Shown piece after piece: positions 30,622-64,000 of a stretch of DNA of 64,000 bases. Location of the stretch: positions 1 to 64,000 of the forward strand of contig JANDJZ010000080.1 of NCBI GenBank assembly GCA_027943245.1, in the 5' to 3' direction. Made by a program: the position numbers and the translations under genes. The first letter of the stretch is position 1, and each line of letters begins with the position of its first letter. This DNA comes from Acanthamoeba sp. SK_2022b. Lineage: Eukaryota > Discosea > Longamoebia > Acanthamoebidae. The notes beneath the pieces were generated by a model. It was not told the DNA's origin. It was given only the letters and a program-made list of their open reading frames with translations, and made no database searches.

Positions 30622-32689
30622 TCAATACCACTCGATAAGAACGTGGGTCAGGAGCATGTAGGCGGTCGCCGTCAACGTGGAGACCAACATGCACGGAAAG
30701 CCCATCTGAGCATTCAGCGCGTGACGAATGGATGGGACATGAGCACGTAGAACAGCTACTTGGGCAAAGACGAGCGAGGAGACCGTACCTTGAAGAAATA
30801 GTTGAAGGAGATGGGCCGCCCGTACTGCTCCGCAATACCGGCCGCCACCACGTTTGCCGACGCTGAATAGTGTCCAGAAAGGTAGCGAGGAGGAGAGTTC
30901 GCGTGAGCACATCGCACGCAAAACATCACGGAAGGGGACGATGCTGGTAATCAACAAAGGGGAAGCTCGCGCGTACCACCGATGAGGGTGCCGTTTCCGC
31001 CCAGACAGGCGCCAAAGGCCATCGCCCATGTGAGCGGCTGGAGCGGAAGCGCGAGAGAGCCCTGTCATGTTACGCGGGCCGTCAGTCATTGCGACTCGTT
31101 CGGAATCATGATGCGTTGGAGTGTATGTGGTGTGTGTTGAACCTTGGTGAGCTTGACGACAACGGGAATCATGGTGGTAGTGAAGGGGATGTTGTCTATG
31201 AACATGGACACTATCGCGCACACCCAGATGATCAGGAATACGGCGAAGGCCAGCCGCAGCTTGCCCTATAAACGCGCACGCAAGCCGAGCGAGGGAAAGG
31301 AGAGGAAGGGCGGTCAGTTCTGAAAGCGAGCCGAGTGGAGCGCGACGCACCTCGGGCATGACGTCGATGATGTCGGAGGTGGTGTTGGCGATCCAGATGG
31401 TGACCCCGAGCTCTTCCACACAACGGACCATCACGAACAGCCCCGCGAAGAAGAGCAATGTGCTCGTCTCCACTGTTTTTGTTTTTGTTTTTGGTGGTGA
31501 GTCGTGCCCTGCAGTACGAGGAAGCGGTGGGGCGTTTGGGAGAGGGGGGGGTTGCACCTTTTTCAAGGATTTCGTGAAAGTTGTCCGCGCCGGAGAGGAC
31601 GAGAAGCACAAGCGCGCCCAGGATGGCAATCCACGGCAGCGACAGCTTGATCTCGGCTGCAAACGAGACCGGCCGGAGAGTCAACACTCACCGCATTAAC
31701 ACGACACGATGCGCAGCAAGGATCAGGACCAGACTGGGGTGCTACGTACTGAGGAAAGAATGGAGGAAGAAGAGGAGGATGACCACGACCAGCACGCAGC
31801 AGCTCTTGATGAAGAGCGTCACATCGCTGATGACGTATTTGCGCTCCAGCTCCGCGACGTCGATCACGCCCAAGGGCATCTCTGCGGCGCTACCTTCCGC
31901 GGTGTAGTCCGCCTGGCTTCCGCCCAGCACGTCAGGTTCGTCATCGTCATCGTCGTCCTCGCCGTCGTTCTTGCCGCGGCCCTCCTCTTCGTCAAGCATG
32001 TCGGGCTCGGCCGCCTTTTCCTTCCCCTTGCTCGCCCCACTGACGCCAGCGGCCGCGTGCCCATGGCTGGCGCCGCCACCACCACCGTGGTGTCCACCGC
32101 CGTCTAGGGCGGCTTCGAGGGCGGCGATGCCGGCGAGCCTCTCCTGCAGGCGCTCCTCGAGCTCGCGGATGTGCTTTACCAGCTTGTGGCGCACGCGGTT
32201 GTCCTCGTTTTGGGTGATGCTCTTGTGGCTCATGTCAAAGGCGTGTAGAGTCTTTTTCCAAATCTCGATCTCCTTCGCGAGCGGGTCGACCGGCGCTCTC
32301 TAATTTTTTTTAACACAAAAATAGATTATTGTGTTAAAAAAGAGAAATAAATTAATTGATGAATAGAGTTGTTTACAACAAACCACTCAGGTCGTACGTA
32401 CTTGGCATATCTTTTTCTTGTAGACAAACAGGATCAGCACGAAGGTGCTGCACATTGCGAGAATGGCTCCCGGCGCGACGTGCAGCGTAAAAGAACTGTT
32501 GCCGGGAATGAGGTGTCAACAACGCCCTTGCACGATGCGTATGCGCGCCGACAGCACGTACCTAAAGTCGACCAGGCCCGAGTCCTTGATCTGGGAGTTG
32601 GAAATGATCAAAATGTTGGGCGGATCCCCGATGCCCGTTGCCGTTCCGCCGATGTTGGAGAATATCTGTAGCCAACACGGTCAACGCTT

Positions 32690-38704: not shown

Positions 38705-41510
38705 CTCCCTCCCAGAATCGAGAGTGACCGTATTAGACGCTTTGGATGGAGAGATTGAGTGCCTGCTTGTCACGTTTCAGCTTGGGTGTGGCGACGTGTT
38801 TCGTAAGGAAGTCAGCGAGGTTTTTGTTGGTCGGAATGTAGCTGACAGTGATGTTGTCCTGTTGGATGTGGTCGTAGATGAAGGCGTGTCAGATTGTGAC
38901 ATGCTTGAGTCTCTTAGGCCAGGCGAAGACTGGCTTGTGAACGAGGGTGATGGTTGATTGATTGTCGTTAAGGATTCTCGTTGGCTTGAGTAGCTTGAAA
39001 CCGAGCGCAGGCAGTAGACGTCGTAGGTAGAGCGCCTGTCGTGCAGCGTTGGTCACCGCAGCGAGTTCAGCCTTGGCAGTAGACAGTGCTACTGTCTTTT
39101 GTAGGCGGGACCACCACGCAACCGGTCCACCGGCCCACAGCACAATGTTGCCGGAGTAGGATTTCATGGTCAGTGGATCGGTGCCATAGCTGGCATCACA
39201 GTGAATGACTGGGTCGTGCCTGACCCCTCGGCTGTATCGTATCGTCTGCGCGCTGGTCCTGTTTAGGTACTGCAGCACATGTCTAGCTGCCTCGAAGTGG
39301 GTCAAAGGCGCAGATGAAGCGAGAGAGATATATGACGGCGTGAAGAATGTCTGGCCATGTGGCCAGGGCGATGTAGAGGAGCGCTCCGACTAAGCGACGA
39401 TACTTGAGATGACCATGCGCCGGCGAGGTGTTTTTGACAACGTGTAGGTTCATGCCTGCAGGAAGCAGGCACCTGAGGGGCTTGTGGTGAACGACGTCAA
39501 ATTCGTGGGCCAGATCAACTATCTTTTGTTGTTGGGATATGTTGAGCACCCCCTTCAAGACATCGTAGTTAACATTGATGCTGAGGATAGTGGTGACCGC
39601 ACCAAAATCCTTGATGTGGAATCGTTGTTGAAGTTTCTCTTTGATGGCGTCGACATTGCTGGGAAGACTGATGATGAGGAGATCGTTGATGTAGATGGAC
39701 AGGATGACTTGAGGCATCCCTTCAGCACTTGAGTTGATGAAGATTGTGTGTAACTCAGGGTTGTATGCGTTCTGGTCGCCTTCCGTCTTGTGGGGGTGGT
39801 TGTGGAGCGTGTAGAGGCATGGATCGGTGGAGGCAGTGTGGAAACTGATCTTGGTGAGGAAGGTGTTGAGGGTGCGGTTCCAGGTGAGAGGTGCCTGTTT
39901 TAGGCCATAGAGAGCCCTCTTTAGGAGTAGCATGTGACGAGGGTGGCTGGTGTTGACAAAACCCTTGGGCTGAGTGATGTAGACCTCCTTGTGTAGCTTG
40001 GCCTGAAGAAACGTGTTGTTGATATCCATTGAGTGAGTGATGAAGCTGTTCATGATGGTGTACACCAGGAGCAGATGTAGATTTTTGAGCTTCATGACTG
40101 GTGTGTATGTGTTGTTGAGATCAACACCAGCCTTCTTCTGTGAGAATCCTTGTGCAACCCAGTGTGCCTTGTGGACTCTGGCAGCCTTGAGGTTGAATAT
40201 ATTGAGTGCTGACTGCCTTTTGGCTGGGTGGTAGGTTGATGAGCTTGAAGGTGTTGTTTTTGATGAGTGCATGGATCTCGTCTTGCATGGCTGCCAGCCA
40301 TAGGTCCTTGGTGTTGGACTTGAGAACCTCTTTGAATGTACAGGGAATGAGCGTAGTGTTCTGTGCTGGCTTGAGCTCATGCGCCATGTGTTGGAGTTGC
40401 AGCATTGTGTGTGTCTTGTGTGAGGCTTGCGTGCCAAGAATGGATGTGATGAGGTTGAGAGTAGCCTGGTAGGATGGTCCTGGTGCGCCCTGGGGAGGCT
40501 GGGCGTTGGTGAAGTGTGTGGGTTGTTGTACGTTGCGCCTGGACTGTGTGTGTGCGACTGTTGGACCACTGTGTTTTGCACTGGCAGTGGTGGCCCTGTT
40601 GATCTGCTTGCTGTTGACAGTGGCCATGCCGTGGGACAACACAAGAATGCATGGTATGGCGACAGGCGTGGTTGGCGCCAAGTCGCTGGGGCCAACTGCG
40701 ATGGATGTGGCACTCAGGTTGCCTGATGTGTGTTGGGCATCTGTGGAAACGGTGTCTTCGCTGGAGGTGTTGTTGGTGGCATCTTTGTCTTGATCCCTGA
40801 CTGTCACCTCACCCAGTGAGCGCCCTGTGGGTGGTGAAACAGCTGCTTGGCCAGGTGCTGGCTCTGTGGTGCTGCTGGGCAGGGGCAGATTGTCATCATT
40901 GTAGAAGAGTGGAGTGTACAAGAGGCCTGCGTTGGCGGGGGTGGGTAGGCTGTCAGCCAATGGGTGGATGCTGTCCTCATTGAAGATGATGTTGCATGTG
41001 TCCACTGCCCTGTGCTGGCTGGTGATGAATATGTGGTAGGTGGAGGTTGAGTAGTCCACGGTTCCCAGCACTGCAAGAACGCTGACTAGCACTTGAATGC
41101 AGGCCCAGACCAAGCGTACCATGTCACCAGGCTTGAGGAGATAGGTTTCAGGTTTTCCAAGATCACGTCAAGCGGCCTGGAGGGCAACATCATTGTTCCT
41201 GTAGCAGTTGTTGATGGCGGTCCAGAGAGTGAGCAGACAGCCATCACTCATGCCAGAGATGTCCTCCAGTAGCTCAGGGGCTATGGTGCTGCATATGAAG
41301 ACGAACATCTTCCTGCGACCCTTGCAAATCTCCCAAGCAGACTTGAGACTATCAGCATCAGAAAATGGGGAGACGTACTTGCCAGCCTTCTTCACTGAAG
41401 AGCTTGAGGCAGCTGACTTAGACTTCTCCCCAGAGACTGAGTCTGATGTGAGAATGACGCTGTCGTTGATACCCAGGGAGCTGAACAGCTCTGAAGTGCT
41501 TGCAATGTCA
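38705..41510 (-). mobile_element. Decayed, internally deleted Ty1/copia retrotransposon
   Basis: Reading leftward: a gag fragment (WEICKGRRKMFVFICSTIAP, then LWTAINNCYRNND, 41500-41168) is followed almost at once by the C-terminal part of integrase and linker (from about 41140), then reverse transcriptase (MQDEIHALIKNNTFKLINLP, ALYGLKQAPLTWNRTLNTFL, LSIYINDLLI in place of YVDD; about 40370-39290), then RNase H (VIHCDASYGTDPLTMKSYSG, STAKAELAAVTNAARQALYL; 39305-38889). Gag C-terminus, protease and integrase core are missing. The pol frame is broken near 40230 and 39290. It is a non-autonomous relic. Confidence 0.85.
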
Positions 41511-41562: not shown

Positions 41563-43860
41563 CGCCCCTCAATTGAATGTGACAGTATTGTCTTGTCTAA
41601 GCAGTTTGACCAGGTGCTGGAGTTTTGGTCTTGGAAGCGCCTTGGTGAGAAGGTCAGCCAGCATGTTCTCAGTCAGGCAGTAATGTAGATCAAGTCATCT
41701 GGATGAGAGTGCGTCATGAAGATGAGCTACCTTGACGTTGTAGTATTTCATTCGCCCATGGTAGGTTGTGAGTCTGTTCTTGAGAACAGTGAGTGCACTC
41801 TGATTGTTGCTGTAGATTTGAATTGTTGCTTTGTTGTTGTCCAGGTTGCATATATGCTTACAAAGGAAGAAACCTCCTCTATTATCAAAGAGAGGTCGAA
41901 AATGACTGGCTTTTTTTTGTGTGCTCATTTCAAGGAATGCTGCGCTATCTGGTGAATTAACCAGCTTTAGACCAAGTACCAATTGTAAGTTCGTGTTTAC
42001 TAGATTTTAGGTAGGGTAATTGTTTTTATCAAAATGGATGAGGTAAAATTTCTTATTTTATTGAAGTAAAAGTCAATGGAGAGTGCAGAAAATGGAGAGC
42101 TGCATCTTTGGGCTGTGGTCATTGAACTGATGTGCATCAGGTCAATGCTCACCTTTTTGGTTTGTGATGAAAAAGGTAAGTGGTGAAAAAGTCACATCTG
42201 TGGATGTACAAATATACATGGGTTCACCTTGGGTCATGTACAGGCATTTTTGGGTTCATTAAAAAGTGACATTGGTACTTTTTTCTGAACACTCTGTTAT
42301 TTACAATGGCCTTACAAAACCAGCTGGTTTCTCTTCACACACCAAACCTCCTCCCCAACAACCCCCAACATCTGAATGACAACAGAGATGCCTACCCTGT
42401 ATGGACCACACTTCACCTGAAACTGTGAACTTCCAGGCTGCAAAATACTGTCTATGCATTGGTGTTTGCCCATGCAATCATTGCCAAGGGGTGGAGTAGC
42501 TGGCACATCAAAAATCAGACAGGACTGGACAGGAACGAATGGTAAAACGGACTTGCCTTGGGTCACCATAAAAATGCTTGCTATCTGGTCATGTACAAGC
42601 AAGTGATGTTGACGGTCTTCTTGGCATTTCTCTGCTCTACATTGTGTATTCACATGTGATGCTCTTTAGGACTACTTACGTGTACATGATGAAAAAACAA
42701 CTGAAAAATGGAAGATTTTGAGTTATGTGTGTGTGTTTCTCATTGTACTTGCCCAGATGGTGAATCAACATGACAACATAGAGGGTGTAATTGTGGGAAA
42801 GAAGGTGCATGAGCATTGTGTATGTGTACACATACACAATGGTATAGCAAGCATAAATGTCATGAAGACCTCCAACATCACACACATGACCAGATGGCAG
42901 GCATTTTTGTGGTGACAGAGGTGCATGAGCATTTCATACACATCTGCAATGGTATGGCAAGCATAAAACCCCAGAAGGCCATCAGCACCACATGCTCATA
43001 CAGGACCAGATGATGGCAGGATGTGGTGAAGAGGAGCTGCATGAACACTGCACATGTGGACGCTATGGTTGCAAGCAAGTGTGTGTGTGGTGAAGGAGGT
43101 GCACTGGCAAAACCTTGATGCCATGCCATCAATGAAGCAGCTCTCACCTGACAGTGCAGCATCAAGTGGGGAAGGAGACAAAGAAAGTGCAGAGTTGATT
43201 GAGTTCTGTGTGCAAGCAGCAGCAGCGTTTGAGTAGGCAGCTGTCATGTTTCTTGAAGGTGCCACGGACTGTCAATGTTGTATGTTTGTGATTTGCACCA
43301 TTCACCAGTAACCAGCCACCATGGTGGGCTGCTGCAGAATTCATGAAATGTTAATGCTCATCACTGAGTAAGGGATGGGGGCTGGATGACTGACCTTGTT
43401 GACTGCTTCTAACTACAACATCTTTACTGAAACCACCATTACTGCTGTGACCTCCACATGTCTAAAAACCAGCTAGTGCTTCATGACATCATCTACTGCC
43501 AACTCAATGCCCTTGCAGTCCAAAGTGATCACTTGTTGTTTGCATTGTAGCATGGGTTATCCTGGTTTTTAAAGTGCTTTCTCAACTACTGTCATGGCGA
43601 TCTCTCATTGCGTGTGGATGGTTAATGGCACCTTGAGCATGCTGCCTGTCCTTGTGGTGTGGAGGCACATTGTGCCACTGGTTGAAAGATGGTGCATCTG
43701 GTTGAGTGGATGATTGCTACACTGCCTGAGTTGGTGATGACTGCAGTCAATAGTAGATTGCTTGTGATTGTTGGTATGTACAGCACTCTTGGGAGTGTGA
43801 AGTTGGTGCTCTGTCCATCTTTGCCAATTTGAGTTGTCACCAAGAGTGTTGTTTTTCACA
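41563..43860 (-). mobile_element. Fragments of a second, more decayed copia element
   Basis: Leftward-reading fragments are: a protease/integrase junction (TLPRVLYIPTITSNLL, then GSVAIIHSTRCTIFQ; 43843-43622), and an RNase H end (IQIYSNNQSALTVLKNRL, GRMKYYNVKVAHLHD; 41982-41695) continuing into CLTENMLADLLTKALPRPKL and a purine tract TTGAGGGG at about 41570. An LTR start, TGTTGGAGCAAAC, follows at 41562. The 1.6 kb between these fragments is CpG-poor and unrecognisable apart from the repeats at 42.56-43.08 kb. Confidence 0.6.
42563..43080. repeat. Tandem and inverted repeat cluster inside the decayed element
   Basis: Three diverged direct copies of a unit of about 110 bp begin near 42795, 42911 and 43022; each contains a GTGCATGAGCATT-like start and a GGTATRGCAAGCATAAA-like middle. 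The segment 42563-42660 is an inverted, imperfect copy: GTCACCATAAAAATGCTTGC there matches the reverse complement of sequence at 42895-42920, and similarity extends for about 100 bp. Confidence 0.55.
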
Positions 43861-44602
43861 AACTTGCCTTGATCAAGCTGCTAGCACATCCCCACAGACA
43901 TTTGCCCATGAGGGCAGCGCGTAGGCATTTATGCCAGACTCAATAGTCCTCAGCTATTTGCAGCATCAGGCAGGGGAGAGTCATCTCATTCATTCTAACA
44001 TGTAGGCTTTAGCAACAGGATATGGAGCATGCTTTGACAAGGATAAGCTGCTAAACTGTTTATCCATGCTACTCACAAGTGTTGCCTGCACTTGTGTGCT
44101 CAAATCTGTCAACTTGTCAACTTCGCCCATTGCCATGGTCCACTTCCTGTTGACTGGCTCATTTTGGCTTTAGACGAAAAAACACTCTCGTTTTCCACAA
44201 CAGTAGATACTGACGTGCCCATGGTAGCACATACTGGGTGGGGAACTCGCCACATACTGTGTTTGTGTGTGTGAAGCTAAGAATGGACCACCACCATATC
44301 ACAAAACAAGAGGTTGAGCGAACGAGCTTAGTAAGCCACGCGGTCTTGGCCGGTGCCGCCTCGCCAACCACCGCTACCTTGAACGAACGCGCGGAGTTGT
44401 CCACCTCCCCGGCAATAAAAGAAGAAGAACCGGAAAAGAGCAAAGACGATGGACCACAAAGCGGGCTGGAACGGCGTATCACTCATCACTCACCTTTGGG
44501 CAGACTTGAAAGAGGTTGAGGTTTCGTTTGCCTCGACAATGTAAATAGGCAGAAGTGGCCAGGTCTCCACCACGAGAGGGTGCAACATGCTTGGCTTTCG
44601 GC
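43861..44602. other. Intergenic, mostly CpG-poor
   Basis: No gene is supported. The composition is repeat-like up to about 44290 and then returns to gene-like GC content near the 3' end of the F-box/actin gene. The open frame on the plus strand at 44238-44519 lacks any domain. Confidence 0.4.
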
Positions 44603-46633
44603 TCAGCAAGAGGGTATCGTGGCGGAGACTTTCTTGAAGATCTCATCGAACGGGGCGCGGGGCCTCGCCGCAGCCAGCATACAGGCGCCCTGGGCGGCGT
44701 CGAAGCCTCTGCGCTCCCTCCGCGCATCGTCCACCTGCAGGCGTGTGCGTGAGAGCTAGTGAGAACAAAAGAGATCGTGCATCGTGGCTGTTTTGGTGGA
44801 AACAGAACAGAAGGTGCCACCTGAAGCACGCTGTGCTGGAGGTGGGCGTTGCCCGAGGTGAGCTGGGTGAGTTCGCTCTGGAACAGAGAGTCCCAGTCGC
44901 GCCTCTTCAGCGACCCGCCGCCGGTGATGACCACGTTGCGCAGCAGTTCGTCGAGGTCGATGCGATTGAGCTCGGCCCCGTTCTTGTGCCTATGCATGCG
45001 CTCCAGAACCGACACCACGAGCTCGGCCGCCACCTGGTGCGAGTCCCAGTTGTCCTTCTCGACGGCCTTCGCGAGCTCCTCCTCCTCCTCCTCCCAGGGG
45101 CTAGCTGGCTTCTTGGCCTGGGGCTGTGGGCCGTCATGGCACCGAGAACAGGCGAGCCTACCCCGCTCGCCATGCAGGCACTCGCGGCACCGCACCGATC
45201 CGCATATCCTGACGGAAAGGTGAGCGTGGAGACAGGCATCACGTGGTGGTGGTATGAACTTACCTGCAATGCCTACGCCGTATCCACAGAGTAAAATCGC
45301 GAAAGCAATCCGGGCATGTGTCGCCTTCATTGTAATCGGCGATCCAGACCCTGCTCCCCCCCCCCCCAATGATTGGCAACGCCCAAGCCAACAGACTGTG
45401 GGGAAGAGGGGACAGAAGGGAGAGCGCAACGTACAGCGGCGTGGTTGGGGCGGTGGCGGCGAGGCACCTGAGTGCGACAAATTTGCGCAGGAGTTTGCCC
45501 TCGTGGACGGGCGAGACCGAGATCACCTCGGCTCCCACATCGACAACCACGCCGCTCCTCTTGCCGTACGATGCCAGCACCAGCACGCCCGAGTCCTGAT
45601 GCATGGTGATGTCACAAAACCTCCTTGGTTGGCTTCAAGCTTGGGATAGCTGTGCATTGGGCAGAGGGGGGGAGTTTACCTCGGCGCAAGCAAAGGGCGA
45701 TTTTAAGGTCTTCATCATGCGAGATAGGGCGTCCCACTCCTCGTCCCAAGTGGGCGGCACGCAGAACACGATCGGCGATGGCTCAGAGATGCCAAGCCTG
45801 ATGCGGTCCACGAGTTACAGCGTGCAACACACACAGACACACGGTTCACACGAGAACGTCAAACGAATCAGCCGGGAAGCGCAGTTCCCGCGCGCACCTA
45901 CTCAGGCAGTGCTCCAGAAGATGTGTGAGGCGATACATTACAACCACCTTTCCTGTACAGGTCAGTGCAACAAAAAGAGTTAATTTAAAAAAATGCTCTT
46001 GAAGATCACTCGAGGGCCAGTGCTGACTTACCTCCATAGACCAGCTTGTCCACTCGATCTCCGTACTGGCGGATGGCGTCCTCGCCAAAATAGTGCCTGA
46101 CCGGCGCGCGGTAGTGCCACGCGTGCTCTAAAAGAAGGAGAACAAGGTGTTGGTGATAGACTCACCCAGCGCAGGAATACGGCGTGGGCAGGGAAGGGGG
46201 GAGGGGATCAGGGGCAAGGGGGGAGGGGATCAGGGGCAAGTACCGCTGATGGATGTCATGACAGACCGATCGGAGAGAGTGACGTAACCGTCGTCCAGAC
46301 CCGTCATCACGCACTTCACCGAATGGCTTCCGCAATCGATTGCCATCACCGTCGCATGCGCGCTCCTCTCGTAGCTGCCACCGCCCGAGCCCGCAGTCAG
46401 TTGATTAACGTGTGTTCCCACAGCTTATCTCACATTTGATGTGCTGGCCTTCAGAAGAGAGCGAGGTGGGTTATTGGGGCGGTTACCTGGCACGCGTCTT
46501 CCAGCAGCCGTACCAGTCCTCGATCTCGGCGTTTGACTCTGCAAACTCGCCTGTCGGCGACAGGGAGCCCCATCTGGCCTGATACTGCTGTTTCCACAGC
46601 TTGCCATCTTGCGCAATGTCGTACCATAGCTGT

Positions 46634-46697
<64 letters not shown>

Positions 46698-48441
46698 GTG
46701 TGTGTTGAGTTCATGCACAGGCGCCAGGCGCGAGAGAATGAGCCTTACCTTGGACACGAGCTGCAGTCGGCCAATCTCAGGCGGCGACAGGTAGCCAAAG
46801 ATGTGCAGGTAAACCTCGTACGGGAGCGCCAGCTCGCTGGCCAGCCGCAGCTTGTCCTCCCCTACCACACCACCATAGCGCGTGAGCAGCTCCGATCTCA
46901 CTTGCGCGCATCATTCCACACAGCAGCTTCTCTAGCCCGGGGCGGATGGGTCGGGGGAGTGTGAAGCACCGATGGAGCGCTGTTCGTCGCGTTGCAGCTG
47001 GATGGCCTGAAGGTACTTCTCCACGAATTGCTTCACATCTCCCTGGTCGATGGCGTCGTCTGACTGCGCGTAAACCTTGACAAGCTGTCGATGTGGCCAG
47101 GGGTCCAAGGAAGGTGAGCTGCGATGATCGCCACATACACCCCAAGGGCAGAGAGTGCCTTCCGATAGGTGGGCTTGTCGAGGTAGTCGTCGCGAGCGAC
47201 CACCGCCCCGGTGTCCACCCGCTGAAACATCATCTGTGTTTGTGTGGAGACACATAAAACGACCAATGGCATGCGCATTCTCATAGAGTCAACAACAGCC
47301 AAGTGCGTCGTTGATCGTGGTAGTTACTGGAGGTGAGTGAGGCAACGTGCCTCGGTGCGGAGGATGTACTTGACGCCCTCGATCACAGGTTCGCCTTCGT
47401 GATAGGTGTCGTGGTTGAAGATGACCGCCTGGCCCGCCTGCGGCGTCACCCTCCACAGTAACTCCTTGGTGGCTTTCCAAAGCCACACGACGCAACCAAA
47501 CACAACAAGACGACACAAGGTAAACGCAAACTTGTTCAGTATCAACTTGGTTGGCTCAATAGAGCGAAGCCTCACCTTCGGAGCGAAAGTTGGTGCACCC
47601 GCCCTTGTAGTCATCGTTGAGGTAGATGACCACCGTGTAGATAGAGCTTTCGTCTAGCCTAGGCACCCACGGGCCATCCACGTGCCCTCTATGATGACGG
47701 TGATGCCCATCAGATTCCCACGTGTGCGCATGTTGTTGGGGTGAGCGAAGCGCCACAGGTAACGCGAGCTCAACCGTCATGACCAAGAGCGGCTAACGCA
47801 CGAGAAATGGTCGCCGGCCTTATAGCGCACCACCTTAAGGCATTCGTTGAGACGGTACGGCCGCCACGTGCCCGCGTTGCCGAACCCTGCAAACCAAGTC
47901 CACACGCATTACCGTTTGCGGGCTCTTCAGCGAATTCCACCAAGCCGGGTGGCAAACCGATGGGGCGGACGCGAAGCACGTCGTCGCGCGTGAGACCTGG
48001 TTTGATTCGCTGCCACAGCTCATGGGCTAGCTGCTCGTCCATCACGAGCAGCCGATCACCGCCCCTGTACTCGCTTGCGAACAACCGTCCCAGCTTCTCC
48101 CACCCTTTACCACCGCCCTTCGTAGCAGTGGTGCCTGCAGCACGCTCAGCTGCGTTGATGAGGTTGGCGCATTCCTGTGGCGTGAGCAGGTTGCTGAGGA
48201 TGAAGCACCGCCCATGCTGGGGGCCTCCTAACTTGACTTCGTGCCTCACCAGGCCCCGCTGCTTGCCTTTCTGCTCCGGCTGTCTCGCCTGTCTCTTCGC
48301 GTCGCAGGGTGGGGCGACGAGCGGCTCGGGGGCAAGGGGCGTGAAGCACAGTGCGTCCGGCTGCCGCGGTGCGGGCACCATGGGCGCAATTTTCACCTCC
48401 ACCACTTGCCCACCTCCTTCCTGCTCTCCCACTTGCTCCAT
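44603..48441 (-). CDS. Prolyl 4-hydroxylase-like dioxygenase / F-box / actin-related protein fusion
   Basis: Three modules join in one spliced frame. (1) Fe(II)/2-oxoglutarate dioxygenase, 48441 to about 47230: GPQHGRCFILSNLLTPQECA, NECLKVVRYKAGDHFSGHVD (HxD ligands), YTVVIYLNDDYKGGCTNF, FNHDTYHEGE (distal His) and GVKYILRTE (2OG-binding basic residue). (2) F-box, about 46855-46545: LPYEVYLHIFGYLSPPEIGR, LQLVSKLWYDIAQDGKLW. (3) Actin fold, 46377-44603: VMAIDCGSHSVKCVM, HYFGEDAIRQYGDRVDKLVY, ASYGKRSGVVVDVGAEV, RNVVITGGGSLKRRDWD. Introns at 47234-47350 (GC-AG), 47085-47140, 46932-46969 and 46862-46901 all keep phase, linking dioxygenase to F-box. F-box plus actin is known from plant ARP8. The first dioxygenase intron is uncertain (a 26-nt or about 70-nt choice). 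TGA at 44603-44605. Confidence 0.75.
46196..46240. repeat. 22-bp tandem duplication in intron
   Basis: Two exact copies of a GGGGAGGGGATCAGGGGCAA-type unit lie in the intron after the first actin exon. Confidence 0.85.
46635..46695. repeat. (TG)n microsatellite in intron
   Basis: A TG dinucleotide tract ((CA)n on the coding strand) lies in the intron that splits the F-box between VSK and LWYDIA, next to the acceptor site. Confidence 0.95.
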
Positions 48442-49467: not shown

Positions 49468-51864
49468 TCAGGATCTTCGCGAAGATCCGGGCGACGTGCG
49501 CTGCCGAGATGAAGACGACGGGGATGAAGAGGCAGACGAAGAAGAAGAGTGGTGGCTGCCGCTGCTGCTTCGCGAATGCGAAGAGGAGAAGGACGAAGAA
49601 CTGTACCGATCAGACCTGCTGTCCCTCTCGCTGCGATCTCGTCCGCCTCCATTGCCTCCTCGGTCTCTGCCGTCTCTGCTGCTCTCCCGGTCTCGCTCCC
49701 TGTCCCGCTCCCGATCGCGCGATCGGCCTCCGCCGCCGCTGCTGCTTCCGCGGTCGCGGTCGCGGGGGCTGATGGGCCCGCCGCGGTCGCCCCTGTCGTC
49801 GTCGCTGTCGGCATTGGCCGCTCCTCCCGCCGCTGATGAAGACGACGACGACGACGATCGTCGCTTGTCGCCCGATGACGACTCGAGGACGCGCTTTTTC
49901 TTGGGCAGCACGAAGCGCGGCTTGGCGTCGCCGTCGGCGCCGCGCGACTTGAACGAGGGGAGTGTCGACTCCCGCTCGCGCTTGGACGACGACGACGAAG
50001 ACGACGATGACGATGACGATGACGAAGAGCCAGAGGAGCTGCTGTAGTTCTGCATCTCGTATTTTGTACAGTTATCAGCGTGCGGCAACTCTGCATCACA
50101 ACGACCATGAACGATGATGAGCCAATGAAACTGTCGTGTCGTGTCGTGTCGTGTCGTGTCGTGTCGTGTCGTGTCTCACCTTGGATCAGCTTGGCGATGG
50201 CGGGCACGCCAAAGCCAAAGTACTCGGGACCGGAGACGGAGGTGAACTGGCGCTTGCCGGTCTCCTCGGTCTTCATGTTGTTGACCTTGGCAATCACGGC
50301 CGACCACGCCGCCGTCGCCGACTTCTCGATGATGGCCTCGTCCTCGTCATCCTCGGGCGCCACCTTGAACAGCGGACCTGTGATCACCATTCGCCACCGC
50401 CATCGAGTCAGCCCAGCCGCCAAGTGGCCACACACACACGTTTAATCAAAATAATTAAAATGTAAATTATTAAGATAAATAAATGTAGAAAAAAAGAAGG
50501 AGAACACGCACCATTGAACTTCTGCGAGGTCTGGAGGCCGTCGAGGATCTCGCTCACGTAGTTGCAGCGCACCGAGGGGTCCTCGAAGCTCGAGTACTGC
50601 CGCATCGACTTGAACCCGACCGGCCAGATGTATCGCTTCTGGTGGAACTCGGGCCGGTCCTTGGGAATCGAGCCTGTGCCGTGCCGACACGCCATCCATG
50701 AGTGAGAACGAGAGAGAGAGAGAGAGAGAGAGAGACTAGCGCATAGAGCACAAACGCAGAGGCAAAAATTACCGAGCGAGAGAACGGTGAGGCCGGCGAT
50801 CTTGATGGGCATCTTGACGCGACCGTGCTCGTCGGTGGGCAGGTCGACGATCTTCTTGGTCCGGGGCGTCTTGTCGCCGCCCTTGCCCCCCGCCGCCTTC
50901 TTCTTGCCCTTGGCCGCGGCCTTGGACGAGCTCTCCTTGTCGACGTCGGTCTCCCTCTCCTTCTCCTTGGCGTGGTGGTGGTCCCGCGTCTGCCGCTCCT
51001 TGGACGCGTGCTCCCGCGTCGGCGACGGCGACCGCTTGGCCTTCTTACGCCCCGTGGCCGACGCCGACGCCGACTTGCCTCCGCCGTTCCTCGCGGCCGC
51101 GGCCGCGCCGGCCTCCTCTTCTTCGTAGTCGGAGCTGGCCCTCTTCCTCTTCTTGTCCTTCTCCTTTTCCTTCTCCTTGCCGCCGCTGCTCGACGGCTCC
51201 TTCTTGACGAACCGATCCAGCGACTGCTGCTTGCGCGAATCGCCGGCGGCCCGAGACGACGACGACGACGCGGACGAGGTCGACGAGGAGGTGGAGGTGG
51301 AGGAGGAGGACTCCCTCTTGACAAAGTCGGGGATCTGGGAGGAGAGGGCCACCTTGAGGATGTACTCGAGCCGCTTGGCGAGGACCGCCTCGCGCGGGAA
51401 GTCGATCACCTGCCGGTTGAGCAGCCCGGCCGTTCGCTTCGCCCCGCGCGCAGGCTTGCCGCCTGGCTGGTCGCTGCCCTCGCCCTCCCCGCCGCCGTTC
51501 GCGCCGTCCTCGTTCATCTCGTCCTCGTCGGCGGCCTCATCGTCATGGTCGTCGTCCTGGATGTCGTCATCGAGGTCCATGTCGTCGTCGTCGTCGCTGA
51601 TCTCGCCCTCCTCGCGCCCCTCCCGTTTGACCTGACCGCCCTCGCCGTCCGCGCCGTCGGCCTTGGCCTCGTTCTCGCCCTTGCGCTCGGACTCGACGCG
51701 CTCGCGCATGCTCTGGGCGATGGCGAAGAACGGGAGGTCGGGATCGGAGCACATCTCCTCCCACCGCCCGTATCCGTGCTTGTCGATGCCCTTCAGCAAC
51801 GCGATGTCGTGCGTCGTCACCTGCCACCACTTGGGCAACCCTGTGAACAGCCGCAGGTTTTTCT

Positions 51865-51933
<69 letters not shown>

Positions 51934-52358
51934 CGGCCGCGGCATCGGGTGAGTGGCACTGCGATGGAGGCGTGGAGGCGTATGTGGGGGGGGTACCAGA
52001 CGGAAGCGGAGCTCCTCGTCGCCGAGCTTGAGAGCCTTGCCGCGGATCTTGGAGAAGAGGATGATGCGCTGCAGGACCTTCATGGCCTGGGCGTAGGTCA
52101 TCTCGTCGCCGTCCTCGCGGAGGATGACCTCGTCCTCGGGCCGCTTGCGGCCGCCCGTGGCGGCGCCCTTGCCCTCCATCTTCTTGAAGAGGCGGATGGT
52201 GCTGCGACACCGCTCGAGCAGCTCGACGTAGTGCTTCTCGATCATGGCGGGCGTCTTGCGGGAGAGATTGGCGTTGCGCTGCATGACCTTCCAATCGTAC
52301 TCGCCCTCCTGGTCGTACGGCACGCCGTGCGTGATGAGCGCCCTGTAAAAGTCTGTGT

Positions 52359-52424
<66 letters not shown>

Positions 52425-55400
52425 GTGATGTCAGCAGCGCGGAGACGGTGGCTGATGGTGATGGGGGGACACGTGCCCTGCTTCTCGCGCTTGGACCACT
52501 CCTTGACGGGCTTGCGCAGCTGGGCGTCCTCGTCCTTGGGGTGCTGGAGCTGGAAGGTCGGGCCGGAGGCGGCGCCGGCCCTGCCGCCGGCGTCCTTGGC
52601 GCCCTTGTCGCCGACCACCGCAGCCGGCCGCTTCTTGCGGAAGGAGACCTCGAGCGCGCGGAGGAGGTTCTTGAGGCGCAGGTTGAGCGTCTTGGTCTGC
52701 GGCCACTCCATGACCTGGGGCCGCTTGCCGCGTCGCGCGGCCGAGCGCCGCCGGCCGCTATGTACATCGAAGCCGCCGTCGTCGTCCAGGCCCTCGCCAG
52801 AAGCGGCCAACGCGGCGGCCTCCTGGAACCTCTCCTGGAAGCAGAGCGCCGGGTCGGTCTTGATGTCGTCGTAGTGGCCCATGCCGTGCTTGTACACGCC
52901 CAGCAGGAAGCTCGCGTCCTCGCGCTTGGTCCACCAGTCGGGCATCACCCCGCGCGACATCGTCGGGACCTGCTTCTGCAGCTGCTCCACCGAGCCCTCG
53001 TTGGCCTTGATGAGCTGGCCCAGCTTGGCCAGGTCCTCGAGGGCCTTGAGCAGCTTCTGCGCGTTCCGCTTGAGGTACTCGATGAACTTGTCGTCGTCGG
53101 CGAGCGTCGTGTCCTCGAGCAGGGTGCGCCACCGCTCGTCGCTGATCGGCGAGACGCCCGCGGCCTCGGTCGCTCCCTGCGACGACGCGGGGGTCGCTGG
53201 CCCTGCGGCGGCGGCAGGCGCGGCCGACTCCCTGTCGGCCCCCGCATCCTTCTCCCCTTCGCCCTCCTTGGCCTTGCTGGCCTCGTCCTTGCCGCCGCGC
53301 GGACTGCTCGCCTCAGCGCCGGTCGCGGCCGCACTCGCGGCAGCGGAGCCGTCCGTACTAGCGGCCGCGGGAGGGTTGAGGGACACGTTGGTGATCTTCT
53401 TGAGGACCTCCTCCTCGGTGCCGATGTCCGAGTCCTCCTCCTTGGCGTAGTTGTAGATCATGTGCAGCAGCGCCCGCCCGTAGCCCTCCACCTCGGTCTG
53501 CGTTCGTCGCGTAAGCTTGCCCATCGTCTTGATCTCGTGCCACCTGCAAGAAACAGATCGCGTTGATGGACACGCGCCCATATACGATTAGGGTTGCAGG
53601 AGACAAGCTGGAGGAGGTCAGTGTGTCACGTGCCTCCCGTAGCCAAAGTTGAAGATGGCGCTCTTGAAGCGGGATCGCTCGGCGTTCGACCACTCGCGGC
53701 CTTTGACCTTCTTGCCGCCGGCCTTGCCGCCGCCGCCGCCGCCGTCGTCGGGCTCGCTGTAGGCGCCGTCGTCCTCGTTCTCGGCCTCGTCGTCGGACAC
53801 GCCGCCGCCGCCCTTCTGGCCGAAGCGCTTCACCTTCCGGCGCACGCGGGATCCCGTCTGGATGCTGGGGTCGGGCAAGTTTTGTGCGGCCTGTGTGCAC
53901 GCATAACCGGTCAGACACATACACCAGCCAAGCCGCTCCCGAGCAAACGCACACGTGTGCGCACAGGACATGGGGGAAGGAGGTGAAGACCTCGGGCAGG
54001 ATCTTCTTCCAGAAGTCGGGGTCGTCGAGGTCCACGTCGGGCGCCGACGAGGCGGAACAGAAGCTGGCCTTGGAGAACGCCGACAGCGCACCGCCAGGCT
54101 CACCTCCTTTGTTTTTTGTTTTTGTTTTTTTGTTTTTTTGTTTTTTTTTTTGTTTTGTTTTTTGTTTTGTTGTTTTGTTTGTTTTTGGAGTAGGAATGAG
54201 TGAGCGTGGCAGTGATGCGTGCATTGAACAGGCGGGCAGTACCTTGGCTCTCGGGCTTGAGGGTGAAGGACGACCGCTCGAGGATCTTGTCGATGTCTTC
54301 CTCGTAGTACTGCTCGCCTTCGTCCTGTCCCTCGCGGAACACGTCGTACGCACCATACTTTAGCAGCGCATCGATCTCCTTCTTGTCCAGCTTTTTCTCC
54401 TCGCCGGCCTTCTCGTCCTCTGTGTCCGCCATGTGGGCGTGAGCGCTCCGCAGTGGTTTGGGACGCAGCTGTTCACTCATCAAGTGGGTCATCGGGTACC
54501 TCGACTCTCGGCCATTTTGCCCAGGACGGCCTGGTCGAGTCCCAGCTTGAGCGACGCCCTCTCGAACATGTGTCGCTCGTAGGTGCCTCTCGTGATCAGC
54601 CTGCCGATAGGAAAAATGATTTTTTTTTAATAAATTAATTAATTAATAAACGTAGAGTGCCGTCAAACAGGGAGAGAGAGGAACCTGTAGACTTTGACCA
54701 TCTGCGTCTGGCCAATCCTATGGCACCGCGCCTGGGCCTGGATGTCGTTCTGCGGGTTCCAGTCGCTGTCGAAGATGATCACCGTATCGGCGGCCGTCAA
54801 GTTGATGCCCACGCCTCCGGCCCGCGTGCACAGCAGGAAGACGTTGCGATCCGAGCCCTGCGAGGAAGCCAGGGCGAGAGCAGCGAGCGGAGTTAGGTTC
54901 AATGATCGTGACGTCAGCATGAAAAGGAGGAGGGGGGAGAGAGAGAGAGAAGGGCAGGTTGAAACCTTTTTGCAGAAGCGGTCGATGGCCGCTTGGCGGT
55001 CGTTGCCGCGGACTCCGCCGTCAATGCGCTCGTAGGAGTACTTGCGGTAGTTGAGGTAGTCCTCCAGAATGTCGAGCACGCGCACCATCTGCGAGAAGAT
55101 GAGCACTTTGTGGCCGCCGGCGATGAGCTTGGGAAGGAGCTTGTCGATCAGCACGAGCTTGCCCGAGCTCTTGATGAGCATCTGGTAGATCGACTCCGGG
55201 TCGGAGAGCCCGTTGAGGATCTGCGACTCCACGCCGTTGATGAGGTACGGATGCTGTCGTCACGTCAGAGAAGGAAAGAAGGAAAAGAGGGAGAAAGTGA
55301 GGAAAGGGTGTTAGTGGCGCGTGCTGGTCGAATCAAAGGCCGAAAAGCGCAAGCGTACATTGCAACACTTCCTGAGCTGCATCATGATGTTCAGCATGTT

Positions 55401-60044: not shown

Positions 60045-63000
60045 ATGGGAGATACCGAGACGAGGTCGTTCAGTCAAACTAACGTCAAGGGCTATGGCGC
60101 TACGTCGGCGCCCTACCACGACATGGAGGACGTCGAGTACAATGACGATCACAGCCGGCATGGTGATGAAGAGAGGGGAATGTCGTCGTCAGGCGATCGT
60201 TCTCGCAACACCAACTCTGGTAACCTCTCTCTGATGACCCTCTTGACTTATGATGCGGGGCCACCAGATTTTGTTCTTTTTCAACTGATTTAGTTGCAAT
60301 TCATGTTGACGCAGTCGATGAGTACCGTGGGCGACGCCGGCCAGAGGATGCAGATGGAGAGAATTGGTTCCTTTTCGACAAGGAGGGCAAGCAGATGGGT
60401 GTCCTCCCCAACAAGTATAAGAAGGAAATCACCGACGCCAAGCAGAAGTTCACCGGCTTGCCGTGGCACCACATCAAGGTGGCCGTGATTTCGCTACTGT
60501 TCGTGGTGGCACTCATTATGTTTGCCCCTATCGAATCTCCCGATGAGAGCCCCGTGTCCCACCTGACTGCGGTCTCGAGCGACACACCCTACGTGCGTTG
60601 CCTACCAACCTATTATTTATTTGTTATTTAATTTATTGGCATTTTTGCTTATGAATTAATCGTTATGCCTTTAGATTGTGGACCTTCTTCCTAGCCACCC
60701 CCTCGATACAATCAAAGTCTTTGTAACGATTCAAGAGCTAGGTACCCGCGCTCCCCCCGAGCCTCATAATCGCAGTGTGCAGCGGCAGGCGAGCTTACCT
60801 TACTTCACGCGCCTCAGTCAATTCGTCTGGGAGTGTCTTTCCAAATCCGACGTACATCTACTTCACTGTGGAGGGCCTCATTCCCGGTGCGTCCAACTCC
60901 AGCCATCAAGATGACGACGACCACCACGCGGTCGCAGGGTACCCATGTCTCCTTCTACTTGCAGCCTCTCTTCTCCCCCTCTTTCTCTCCTCTTCTGTCT
61001 CTGTCTCACCGTGTGCGTGCGTGGCTTCTCCAGCTTGAGCGCCAGTTCCAGCACCGAGCACGAGACGCCTCACTATCCTGATGGTGTGTGGAAGCCTCTC
61101 CACTATTGGGAGATCGCTGGTGCGTTCCCCTCGCTTAGAGCTCGTGGCCTTATTGTTCCATGGAAGCGTCGCCCGATTCTGACCCCCTCGCGTGTGCAGG
61201 CGACGCCTTTGATGCGCAGATGGACTCGCACTACTTCTACCTGACGGACGAGGACCGCGGCGACCACTACGCCCTGCGCTTGAACGTCACCTCCAACTCC
61301 AAGCAGCCCGTGGGCCTGCAGCTCAAGGTCCTCCAGCTGCGTCACATCGTGCGCTACGAGGTCGTTCTCGGCCTCGTTCTCCTCGTGCTCGTCTACGTGC
61401 TCATCGTCTTCGAGTTGGTGCACCGCACCATCGCCGCCTTGATCGGTTCCTTCTGGGGCCTTACCTTCTTGGCCGTCATCCAAGAGAGGCCCAGCTTCCT
61501 CGAGGCACGCCCCCAACCCCCCCCCCCCACGCACGGTTCGCGTCTTACCCGCCTTCCCCAACCTCCTCTGACCAGGTCATCATGTGGATCGACTACGACA
61601 CGATCGGCCTGCTGTTCGGCATGATGATCCTCGTCGGCATCTTCTCCACCACCGGTTTCTTCGAGTACTCGGCCGTCAAGGCCTACAAGATGTCCAAGGG
61701 CAACATCTGGAACCTCGTCCTCATGCTCTGCATGTTCACTGCCGTCACCTCGGCCTTCCTCGACAACGTGACCACCATCCTGCTCGTGGCCCCCGTCACG
61801 CTGCGTCTGTGCAAGGTGATCAACCTGGACCCTCTCCCCGTCATCCTCGCTGAAGTGGTAAGCGTCCACCCCCGCCCACTCCCCACTCCCCATTACTTCG
61901 CTGGTTGCTTCTCAGAGCTGACCGCGTTTCTCTCGCTCGCTTGCTCTGTCTGTCTGTCTCTCGCAGATCTTCTCGAACATCGGCGGTACCGCCACTGGCA
62001 TCGGAGATCCCCCGAACATTCTCATCATCTCCAACGCCAAGATGAGGGCCTCCAAGAAGGTGGACTTTGCTACCTTCACCATTCACGTCGCTCCCGGTAT
62101 GGCCACTACTCCTTTCTCCCCTCCTTCACTGCCACCGAGAAGGCGACGACTAACTTGGCGTATCCATCGGGCCTTGTTTTTCGGGCAGGCGCCGTCCTCG
62201 CCCTGATCGTGACGGTCTGGTTCGTCAAATTCAAGTACGGCAAGATCCTGTCCGAGAGGTCGGCCTTCAACCCGCTCCAGCGTGAGATCGAGATCTGGAA
62301 GCGGACCGCCGCCCGCATCTCGCCCGTCGAGGGTGACGAGGAGAAGAAGGTGCGCACGGCGCTGGAGGACTACGTGGAGCAGCTCAACGATAAGCTCGCC
62401 CACGGCGCCGTGACCGAGAACAAGGAGATCGACATCACCGAGATGGAGGAGAAGTACAAGATCACCGACATGCCGCTCTTCATCAAGACCTGCGCTGTGT
62501 TGGCCGTCGTCATCGCCCTCTTCTTCATCCACCCGTTCGTCCACGCCATCAACCTCTCCCTCCCGTGGATCGCCCTTACCGGCGCCATGGCTCTCCTGGT
62601 AACGCCGCCACCGCCGCCACCGTCGTTGCTTGTTTGGTCGTGTGTCCCCCCCCCCCCCCTCCCCGTCCACTTCTAACGCTCGAGCGTCGCTTCTCCGGCA
62701 GGTGCTGTCCGGCATCCACGAGATCCAGGAGATCATCGAGAAGGTTGAGATGGCCACCCTGCTCTTCTTCGCCGGTCTCTTCGTATTGATGAGGTGCGTC
62801 CCCGTGCCTCGGATGGCTCATGCGCGCGGGGTTGCCAGCGCCACCTCACGTCGACTGGGGACTCACTCGCACGCACGCGCGCGTCTCGTGGCTACGCAGA
62901 TGCATTGAGGAGATGGGCGTCATGCTGTACATTGCCGACTTGACCGCCGACCTGATCGCTGTCGTCCCGGAGGGTCGTCTTCGTCTGGCCGTAGCCTGCA

Positions 63001-63601
63001 TCATGCTCATCTGGGTGTGCGCCATCGTGTCGGCCTTCATCGACAACATTCCCTTCACCACCACCATGGTACCGCCTCTCTCTCTCTCTCCCTCCCTCTG
63101 CTCGCTTGCGCTCTCCCGAGTCGTCACTCAACCGGGCCCGCCTCGCGCGTACGCAGATCCCCATCGTCGTGAAGCTGTCGCAGTCGGGCTTGGGCCTTCC
63201 CCTTCAGCCCATTACCTGGTCGCTCGCCTTGGGCGCGTGCTTGGGCGGCAACGGAACGCTAATCGGTGGTACGTGTGCCTCCTCTCCTCTCCCCTCCCCT
63301 CCCCTCTCCGTGCTGGCGGTGTGCATAGACGAGATGGCGGCCTCACCTCTCTCTTCTTCTTATTCAGCATCGGCGAACGTGGTGGCGGCCGGTATTGCGG
63401 AGCAGCAAGGCTATCCCATCTCCTTCAACTACTTCTTCAAGGTATCGTCCGTCGTCTGTGGTCTCGTGAAATGACATTAGCGCAGCATGCTCAACTTCGT
63501 ACTTCTTCTTCTTGCAGATGGGCTTCCCGTGCATGTTGGTCTCTACGGCGGTGGCCACCGTCTACGTCCTCATCTCGCACGTCATCATTCCCTGGTACTA
63601 G
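60045..63601 (+). CDS. P protein (OCA2)-like / ArsB-type anion transporter, second copy
   Basis: Paralog of the transporter at 30622-34606, on the opposite strand. The cytoplasmic N-terminus (VKGYGATSAPYHDMEDVEYN) leads to a first helix (HIKVAVISLLFVVALIMF), a lumenal region, then [102 protein letters not shown] and [14 protein letters not shown], ending VIIPWY with TAG at 63599-63601. The central loop is shorter and lacks the His-rich and poly-Asp insert of copy one (here it is charged: AARISPVEGDEEKKVRTALE). At least 12 introns; several fall at positions equivalent to copy one. Substrate unknown. Confidence 0.88.
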
Positions 63602-64000
63602 GCGGACAAGGACAGAAGCGAAGAAAGAGGAGCGCTGCCAGCAAGCAGCAAGGAGAAGGTGGGAGGAGCGCTGTGCGGGGAGAAGCCTGCGATGCTGGAG
63701 AGTATACTTACTACAGAGCAGAGGAGAGAGCGGGAGTAGGGGTACTTTTGTGCAGATCGGGTCAAGGTCTTTTGGCTTTTTCACCGGTGTTTGTTTATAT
63801 AGCAGCCCTACAACACAGAGCTGTCCAGAGGTGTTGCTTCGTTCTCCCTCCTCAGTTCACCTTCGCTTGCGCTCTCTCTCTCTCTCTCTTTTGAACTTGC
63901 GCGTGCTCGCTCCGTTGCTCCTGTCCTGTCCGTGACTCCGCTGCCGGCTCTACGGCACTACTCAGAATCGGGAAAGGCGTATTTGAGCCACTTTGCGGGG
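63602..64000. other. Downstream of the transporter gene
   Basis: It holds the 3' UTR and flank, with a short CT repeat near 63872-63890. No gene was recognised before the window ends. Confidence 0.5.

Follow-up and report, generated by a model that had tools for sequence, protein, structure and literature searches.

A gene joining a prolyl-4-hydroxylase-type domain, an F-box, an actin-like region, and a FYVE finger in Acanthamoeba sp. SK_2022b

Between positions 44603 and 48441, the minus strand of a 64,000-nucleotide stretch of Acanthamoeba sp. SK_2022b DNA (contig JANDJZ010000080.1 of assembly GCA_027943245.1, positions 1 to 64,000; here called the window) carries coding sequence for a dioxygenase, an F-box, and an actin-related region. 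A preliminary description, made from the nucleotide sequence without database searches, had assigned them to one gene, which raises the questions of whether they really form one chain and what such a protein could do. As judged by alignment to a relative from another species and by domain profiles, the hydroxylase, the F-box, and the actin-like region, together with a FYVE finger absent from the preliminary domain list, are parts of a single gene. We lean toward regarding its product as an oxygen-dependent substrate receptor of the Skp1-cullin-F-box (SCF) ubiquitin ligase, i.e., an F-box protein that would carry a hydroxylase of its own.

One gene across the hydroxylase-F-box junction

To set the exons, we threaded P0001, an 811-residue protein from a contig of 2579 bases that carries all four domains on one chain, through the minus strand of the window with our own splice-aware aligner. 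The alignment covered P0001 from residue 2 through the last (811) across 15 introns and gave a gene of 16 exons and 805 residues, with its start at 48441 and its stop at 44603 (Table 1). The introns were 55 to 119 nt long; the donor of the one preceding the FYVE finger (45434) is less certain than the other splice sites. This model replaced a hand-spliced one of 17 exons, in which the first intron was 26 nt long and the junction contained two small introns; its frame was open through every domain. With the F-box-actin part as the sole query, a single protein among the 8000 candidates scored was found at E 0.001, and it was again P0001, hydroxylase included. P0001 most likely represents spliced RNA, because P0002, a genomic open reading frame (ORF) from ENA with 166 of 184 aligned residues the same as in P0001, contains a 25-residue read-through exactly at intron 1 that is missing from P0001, and because 15 introns could not fit into a contig of 2.6 kb alongside a frame of 811 codons.

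A DNA search of the window's genome (45 Mb, 1129 contigs) returned one further copy of the gene, on contig C550, plus one 52-base match on C445. The C550 paralog shares all 15 introns with the window gene in identical phases, including the two that start with GC rather than GT in both copies, and its introns are 58 to 169 nt long; the aligner also proposed a 27-nt intron there, which we discounted as artefactual. No similarity to the flanks of the window gene was found within the 9.9 kb of C550 compared. An actin gene of this genome (L179) differs from L185 at six positions and at each of them carries the residue of 4efh_A, the actin of Acanthamoeba castellanii, so that L179 and 4efh_A agree over 375 residues, in keeping with the genus.

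The point at which the gene could fall into two is the junction between the hydroxylase and the F-box. If the intron at 46969-46862 were retained, the hydroxylase frame would hit a TAG at 46934-46932, and a separate F-box-actin gene could start from the ATG at 46914 and, with a 40-nt first intron (46901-46862, GTGAG...TAG), yield an open frame of 467 residues. Such an arrangement of two adjacent genes is, however, hardly credible, given that P0001 and a further relative, P0012, hold both parts on one chain, that the 94-nt intron found at this place and in this phase in C550 shifts the hydroxylase frame without putting a stop into it, and that removal of the 108-nt intron of the window gene creates the junction RSIGEDKLRLASELALPYE, matching RSLGEDKRKLASELALPYE in P0001. 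The TAG lies within the intron and so is spliced out. The earlier statement that neither a stop nor a start codon is needed between the domains thus applies to the spliced frame, the unspliced one containing that TAG. Likewise, the frame is joined as had been proposed, but across three introns (47350-47234, 47158-47085, and 46969-46862) between the exon with the distal iron-binding His and the F-box exon instead of the four counted before.

The alignment of the independent relative P0001 from residue 2 to its end argues that the fusion is not a chance one, as does the F-box region, which is identical at 57 of 57 residues between the two paralogs despite a synonymous divergence (dS) of 0.26. 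By the same alignment, the fusion occurs in more than one species.

Hydroxylase, F-box, FYVE finger, and actin-like region

Pfam profiles were run on the hand-spliced halves of the gene. The first half matched 2OG-FeII_Oxy_3 at 2.6e-12, and no JmjC match was obtained for the window gene at E 1. The HxD...H...K set noted earlier is intact in the spliced protein as H192, D194, H252, and K262, so that the fused enzyme displays the HxD...H iron ligands and the basic 2-oxoglutarate (2OG) ligand, within a double-stranded beta-helix, of a prolyl 4-hydroxylase (P4H)-type 2OG-Fe(II) oxygenase. The Lys sits 10 residues past the distal His, and both columns are among those at least 90% conserved in an alignment of 20 sequences. 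Structure prediction, which had been suggested as a check, was carried out on P0001 (AlphaFold, 19 alignment rows) and gave a usable model of the P4H domain, with a mean pLDDT (predicted local distance difference test) above 80 in 14 of the 20 ten-residue blocks of residues 71-270; the extension and the FYVE finger were less usable, and the actin part was not modeled. No use was made of a model of P0010 (6 rows, mean pLDDT 35).

Among solved structures, the best relatives of the fused hydroxylase by profile were the P4Hs of Bacillus (1.7e-5) and of virus PBCV-1 (0.0029), with no PHD or PhyA chain at E 0.01. A Foldseek search with the P0001 model placed viral and Bacillus P4Hs at ranks 1 to 4, PHD2 from rank 15, and Dictyostelium PhyA (DdPhyA) at rank 44, with small score differences. 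The Bacillus P4H and the PBCV-1 vCPH, collagen-type enzymes that are closest by both profile and fold, differ from the window gene in being stand-alone enzymes without the extension, the F-box, or the actin part. Bacterial relatives reached 8e-30 (E relative to the candidate stretches only), and proteins of about 130 to 250 residues aligned across the hydroxylase domain; the prokaryote scan matched only residues 51-297 of the query (72 of 243 stretches confirmed) and the viral scan only residues 71-316, that is, the hydroxylase, joined at a small number of loci by a portion of its extension (80 of at least 322 confirmed loci kept).

The preliminary description had further proposed that the fused hydroxylase acts on Skp1 in cis. 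In favor of this, the F-box would place the enzyme beside Skp1, and the best Skp1 match in the genome (L024, on C241; the weaker L025 and L026 were left out) retains NDFTPEEEEQIRKENEW, including NDFTPEEEEQ, which we take to be the PhyA target site. Acanthamoeba is listed among the protists that may share the Skp1 modification (PMC3515798). Against it, a separate exon on C247 (3857-4129; L016 1501-1773) has DdPhyA as its best solved match (6t8m, 1.5e-17). An exon at C646:40767-41039 scored equally; the C247 exon alone was compared with structures, and the two places are perhaps a redundant contig pair. The fused enzyme belongs to the same fold class as PhyA and PHD enzymes and has Foldseek matches to PHD2 and 6t8m, but its sequence subfamily differs and its likely 2OG ligand is Lys where theirs is Arg; in DdPhyA, Arg276 follows His266 (PMC7864055). 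By profile and ligand, it is of a subfamily other than PhyA. Since the PhyA-type exon is separate and the fused enzyme is closer to the Bacillus and viral P4Hs, the Skp1 hydroxylase of this genome is most likely that other, PhyA-type gene, and modification of Skp1 in cis by the fusion seems improbable.

The F-box scored 53.6 bits with the F-box-like profile (PF12937), well above the curated cut-off of 24.3. Among its PDB matches was the F-box of KDM2A, which resembles the window gene in joining a 2OG oxygenase to an F-box on one chain; KDM2A is a JmjC demethylase with CXXC, PHD, and leucine-rich repeat (LRR) parts. The F-box repertoire of the genome is large in general, with at least 150 F-box-like matches (150 of 421 candidates scored).

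FYVE fingers carry eight Cys, a WxxD, and an R(R/K)HHCR motif. The finger of the window gene scored 33.5 bits (4.6e-8; cut-off, 27.8) and that of P0001 2.2e-10. By eye, it contains WIAD and the eight Cys, and the basic motif reads RRRHCR in the window gene and C550 and RRHHCR in P0001. The three FYVE-bearing copies aligned to actin residues 51-171 ahead of the finger and 292-323 behind it. When the finger was removed and actin was deprived of residues 181-269, which we take to be subdomain 4, one colinear alignment was obtained (52-238 on 51-234, score 48.1, against at most 19.6 in 20 shuffles), while the control with whole actin scored 37.0 and ended at residue 171. With 89-residue cuts at 15 places in steps of 20, only 181-269 (48.1) and 201-289 (49.1) exceeded 37.2, which puts the finger where subdomain 4 would be, its borders being accurate to some 20 residues. 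The actin fold is thus, according to these alignments, a remodeled one in which the subdomain 4 stretch is gone and FYVE stands in its place, and not the nearly complete fold described before.

In actin, the ATPase residues comprise Q137, H161, and D157 together with the phosphate loops. All three copies keep D11, G13, K18, D154, G156, G301, and G302, while D157 is replaced by A or F, G158 by E, H161 by S, and Q137 probably by S, the alignment there being uncertain. With the phosphate loops only partly kept, the window gene lacks the residue set of an actin-type ATPase, and classical ATP hydrolysis and filament formation by this part are unlikely. Hence, of the oxygen sensor, Skp1-binding module, and actin-like ATPase once proposed for this protein, one chain does unite a 2OG hydroxylase with an F-box of the Skp1 type and a region resembling actin, but the case for an ATPase is weak.

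Relatives and selection

With the hydroxylase part as query, 8 of 1425 candidates were hits. The ORFs P0002, P0003, P0005, and P0006 are short and appear to contain unspliced introns, P0007 is a hydroxylase alone, and in P0004 and P0008 the hydroxylase continues into an F-box. P0009 has a hydroxylase of the same family fused to WD40 repeats and may be a second hydroxylase-receptor fusion. A profile search of 7885 candidates gave five hits at E 0.01: P0008, P0010, P0011, P0012, and P0013. The last is a different protein with two dioxygenases. P0008 and P0010 are ORFs that start inside the hydroxylase domain, without HxD, and run through the extension into the F-box, and P0011 starts past the hydroxylase domain. 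P0012 (EukProt PhM_4, 745 residues, with a transcript-style name) combines on one chain the P4H, its extension, and an F-box of weak score (0.0041). The F-boxes of P0008, P0010, and P0011 scored above the F-box-like cut-off, and those of P0004 (19.4 versus 20.5 bits) and P0012 (17.3 versus 24.3 bits) below the respective ones. Six aligned sequences match across the extension, and a DW after the F-box is invariant.

In P0004 (an incomplete sequence), P0008, P0010, P0011, and P0012, no FYVE match was found at E 1. These FYVE-less P4H-F-box proteins come from metagenomic sequences and from a transcriptome of a flagellate, Papus. The organism behind PhM-4, Papus ankaliazontas, is a prokinetoplastid cultured with bodonid prey (PMC7859406), and P0012 may for this reason be prey contamination. 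Profile alignment gave no actin signal for the tail of P0012, and the tails of P0008, P0010, and P0011 aligned weakly to the actin part of the window gene (26.0 over 21 columns, reached by none of 20 shuffles, the best of which scored 22.8), for which we do not claim them as actin folds. Taken together, these sequences support an old P4H-extension-F-box core.

Selection was assessed as the ratio of nonsynonymous to synonymous divergence (dN/dS) between the window gene and C550 (799 codons, bootstrap 95% intervals). It was 0.10 (0.04-0.19) for the hydroxylase, 0.06 (0-0.20) for its extension, and 0.08 (0.04-0.14) for these two and the F-box jointly, and this low ratio, together with the identical F-box, argues that the hydroxylase and the F-box have been retained as a pair. 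For the tail (residues 423-805 with linkers), it was 0.62 (0.47-0.83), made up of 0.45 (0.30-0.68) for the N-terminal actin part alone, 0.53 (0.22-1.10) for FYVE, 0.68 (0.38-1.25) for the C-terminal actin part, and 1.99 (0.95-5.72) for the acidic linker. The high values of the whole tail, the linker, and the finger could mean that only the P4H and the F-box matter and that the tail is in decay. We consider this unlikely, as the interval for the whole tail stays below 1, so that the tail appears fast evolving yet under some constraint, and as the eight cysteines of the finger (by eye) and the seven conserved actin residues listed above (by alignment) are retained in all three copies.

Candidate function and surroundings of the gene

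The oxygen-dependent receptor that we favor would work as follows. By binding Skp1, as predicted, the F-box would turn the protein into a substrate receptor of SCF; recognition of a client, or placement of the complex on membranes with phosphatidylinositol 3-phosphate (PI3P), i.e., endosomes or phagosomes, would fall to the actin/FYVE module; and the hydroxylase would modify the client or a partner and thereby let the supply of oxygen, 2OG, or iron gate ubiquitination or turnover of the client. Hydroxylation of an SCF client by the fusion is possible.

Two precedents support this reading. In Dictyostelium, JcdI (Fbxo13) unites an F-box with a JmjC dioxygenase that is limited by oxygen, and the protein binds Skp1 (PMC9485057). 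JcdI and JcdH thus resemble the window gene in carrying an oxygen-dependent 2OG dioxygenase and an F-box on one protein, but their enzyme is of the JmjC/JmjD6 type and follows the F-box, whereas that of the window gene is of the P4H type and precedes it; the main text of that paper contains neither "P4H" nor "FYVE," and "actin" occurs in it once. The other precedent is SUSA2/ARP8 of Arabidopsis, in which, as the preliminary description had stated, an F-box is combined with actin; it binds ASK1 and is described as plant only (PMC7562919). Its order, an F-box and then a divergent actin domain, is that of the window gene, but no hydroxylase or FYVE is described in it, whereas the window gene has an N-terminal P4H and FYVE for subdomain 4 and so does not show the whole actin fold without further domains of the ARP8 type. 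On architecture, the plant-only restriction of the F-box/actin pairing, as described there, is contradicted by the window gene. No P4H-F-box-actin or FYVE-in-actin protein was found among the open PubMed Central (PMC) papers listed, with subscription journals and preprints outside the search.

Several observations weigh against the receptor reading or parts of it. The transcript-type support for a single gene comes from relatives, chiefly from P0001 as what is most likely spliced RNA, and not from the genome of the window. The AlphaFold model of P0001 left the actin part unmodeled (block pLDDT at most 42), for which reason the claim of an actin fold rests on sequence profiles, and fold scores with that model set P4H subfamilies only slightly apart. 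PI3P binding by the finger may be weak because RRRHCR replaces RRHHCR, and the actin/FYVE tail is weakly constrained and could be partly decaying. Finally, compared with actin lacking subdomain 4, the tails of P0008, P0010, and P0011 gave no signal above that of shuffled sequence (score 12.2, reached by 17 of 20 shuffles). With no independent actin signal in the FYVE-less tails, these relatives do not establish an ancestral P4H-F-box-actin order.

The F-box might instead serve to degrade the enzyme to which it is attached, with SCF setting the level of the hydroxylase and the actin/FYVE part acting as a targeting tail. That the constrained parts are the F-box and the hydroxylase fits this, and such Skp1-linked down-regulation is described for JcdI (PMC9485057), but a FYVE finger with actin lobes would be an elaborate device for mere targeting, and we regard self-degradation as conceivable but doubtful. 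A broader scenario, speculative and with little probability in our estimate, is that SCF receptors gated by oxygen and made up of a P4H, an F-box, and a reduced actin form an ancient family of eukaryotes, of which ARP8/SUSA2 would be a branch that lost the hydroxylase; in Acanthamoeba, FYVE would have replaced subdomain 4, bringing the ligase to PI3P membranes to hydroxylate its own client ahead of ubiquitination.

If the receptor reading is true, a dioxygenase on an F-box protein would have been invented independently of the JmjC ones, and the gene would provide a candidate route, bypassing the modification of Skp1, by which oxygen could act on ubiquitin ligases. The gene shows that the F-box-plus-actin architecture is not confined to plants and offers a case of an actin-fold lobe swapped for a lipid-type zinc finger, all of it in an amoeba that can be cultured in the laboratory.

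Table 1. Positions of the fusion gene and its parts in the window
Feature	Window positions	Strand	Basis
Whole gene, start to stop codon	44603..48441	-	P0001 splice-aware alignment and exon table
2OG/Fe(II) P4H-type domain, residues 77-270, exons 1-5	47228..48213	-	Pfam PF13640 2.6e-12; Foldseek to P4Hs
HVDGPW, iron ligands H192 and D194	47667..47684	-	Alignment and exon table
HDTYHEG...GVKYILRT, distal iron ligand H252 and putative 2OG-binding K262	47354..47413	-	Alignment and exon table
GC-AG intron, phase 0	47234..47350	-	Splice alignment; GC-AG in C550 too
GC-AG intron, phase 0	47085..47158	-	Splice alignment; GC-AG in C550 too
Helical extension of hydroxylase, residues 271-331	46971..47227	-	Aligned in P4H-F-box relatives; helices in model, block pLDDT 59-80
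Junction intron, 108 nt, phase 1, joining hydroxylase exon to F-box exon	46862..46969	-	Splice alignment; C550 intron of 94 nt identical in place and phase
F-box region, residues 332-388, exons 6-8	46573..46970	-	Pfam PF12937 1.9e-14; 57/57 identical to C550
Actin-like N-terminal half, residues 423-593	45467..46358	-	Pfam PF00022 9.6e-13; hhalign to actin 51-171
FYVE-type zinc finger, residues 603-660, in place of actin subdomain 4	45127..45439	-	Pfam PF01363 4.6e-8; PDB EEA1 FYVE 2.3e-6; position tests
Actin-like C-terminal part, residues 689-805, with VITGGGS	44606..45042	-	Actin alignments

Elsewhere in the window, an RVT_2 ORF (2e-39) at 39283-40713 (-), presumably the reverse transcriptase of a copia-type element, lies near the GC-poorest 2-kb block (42001-44000). 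At 50408-53587 (-), an ORF of 1059 residues in unspliced reading shows an unusual mix of chromatin domains (FYRN at 1.6e-18, CHD1/Hrp3 helix-turn-helix, and CHDCT2). CitMHS (citrate transporter) ORFs occur at 61213-62676 (+), 62793-63935 (+), and 30622-31680 (-), of which the first alone passes the curated cut-off; the two on the plus strand adjoin and match different stretches of the profile. A GH5 cellulase match (3.9e-28) is contained in a single open frame at 24524-26029 (-).

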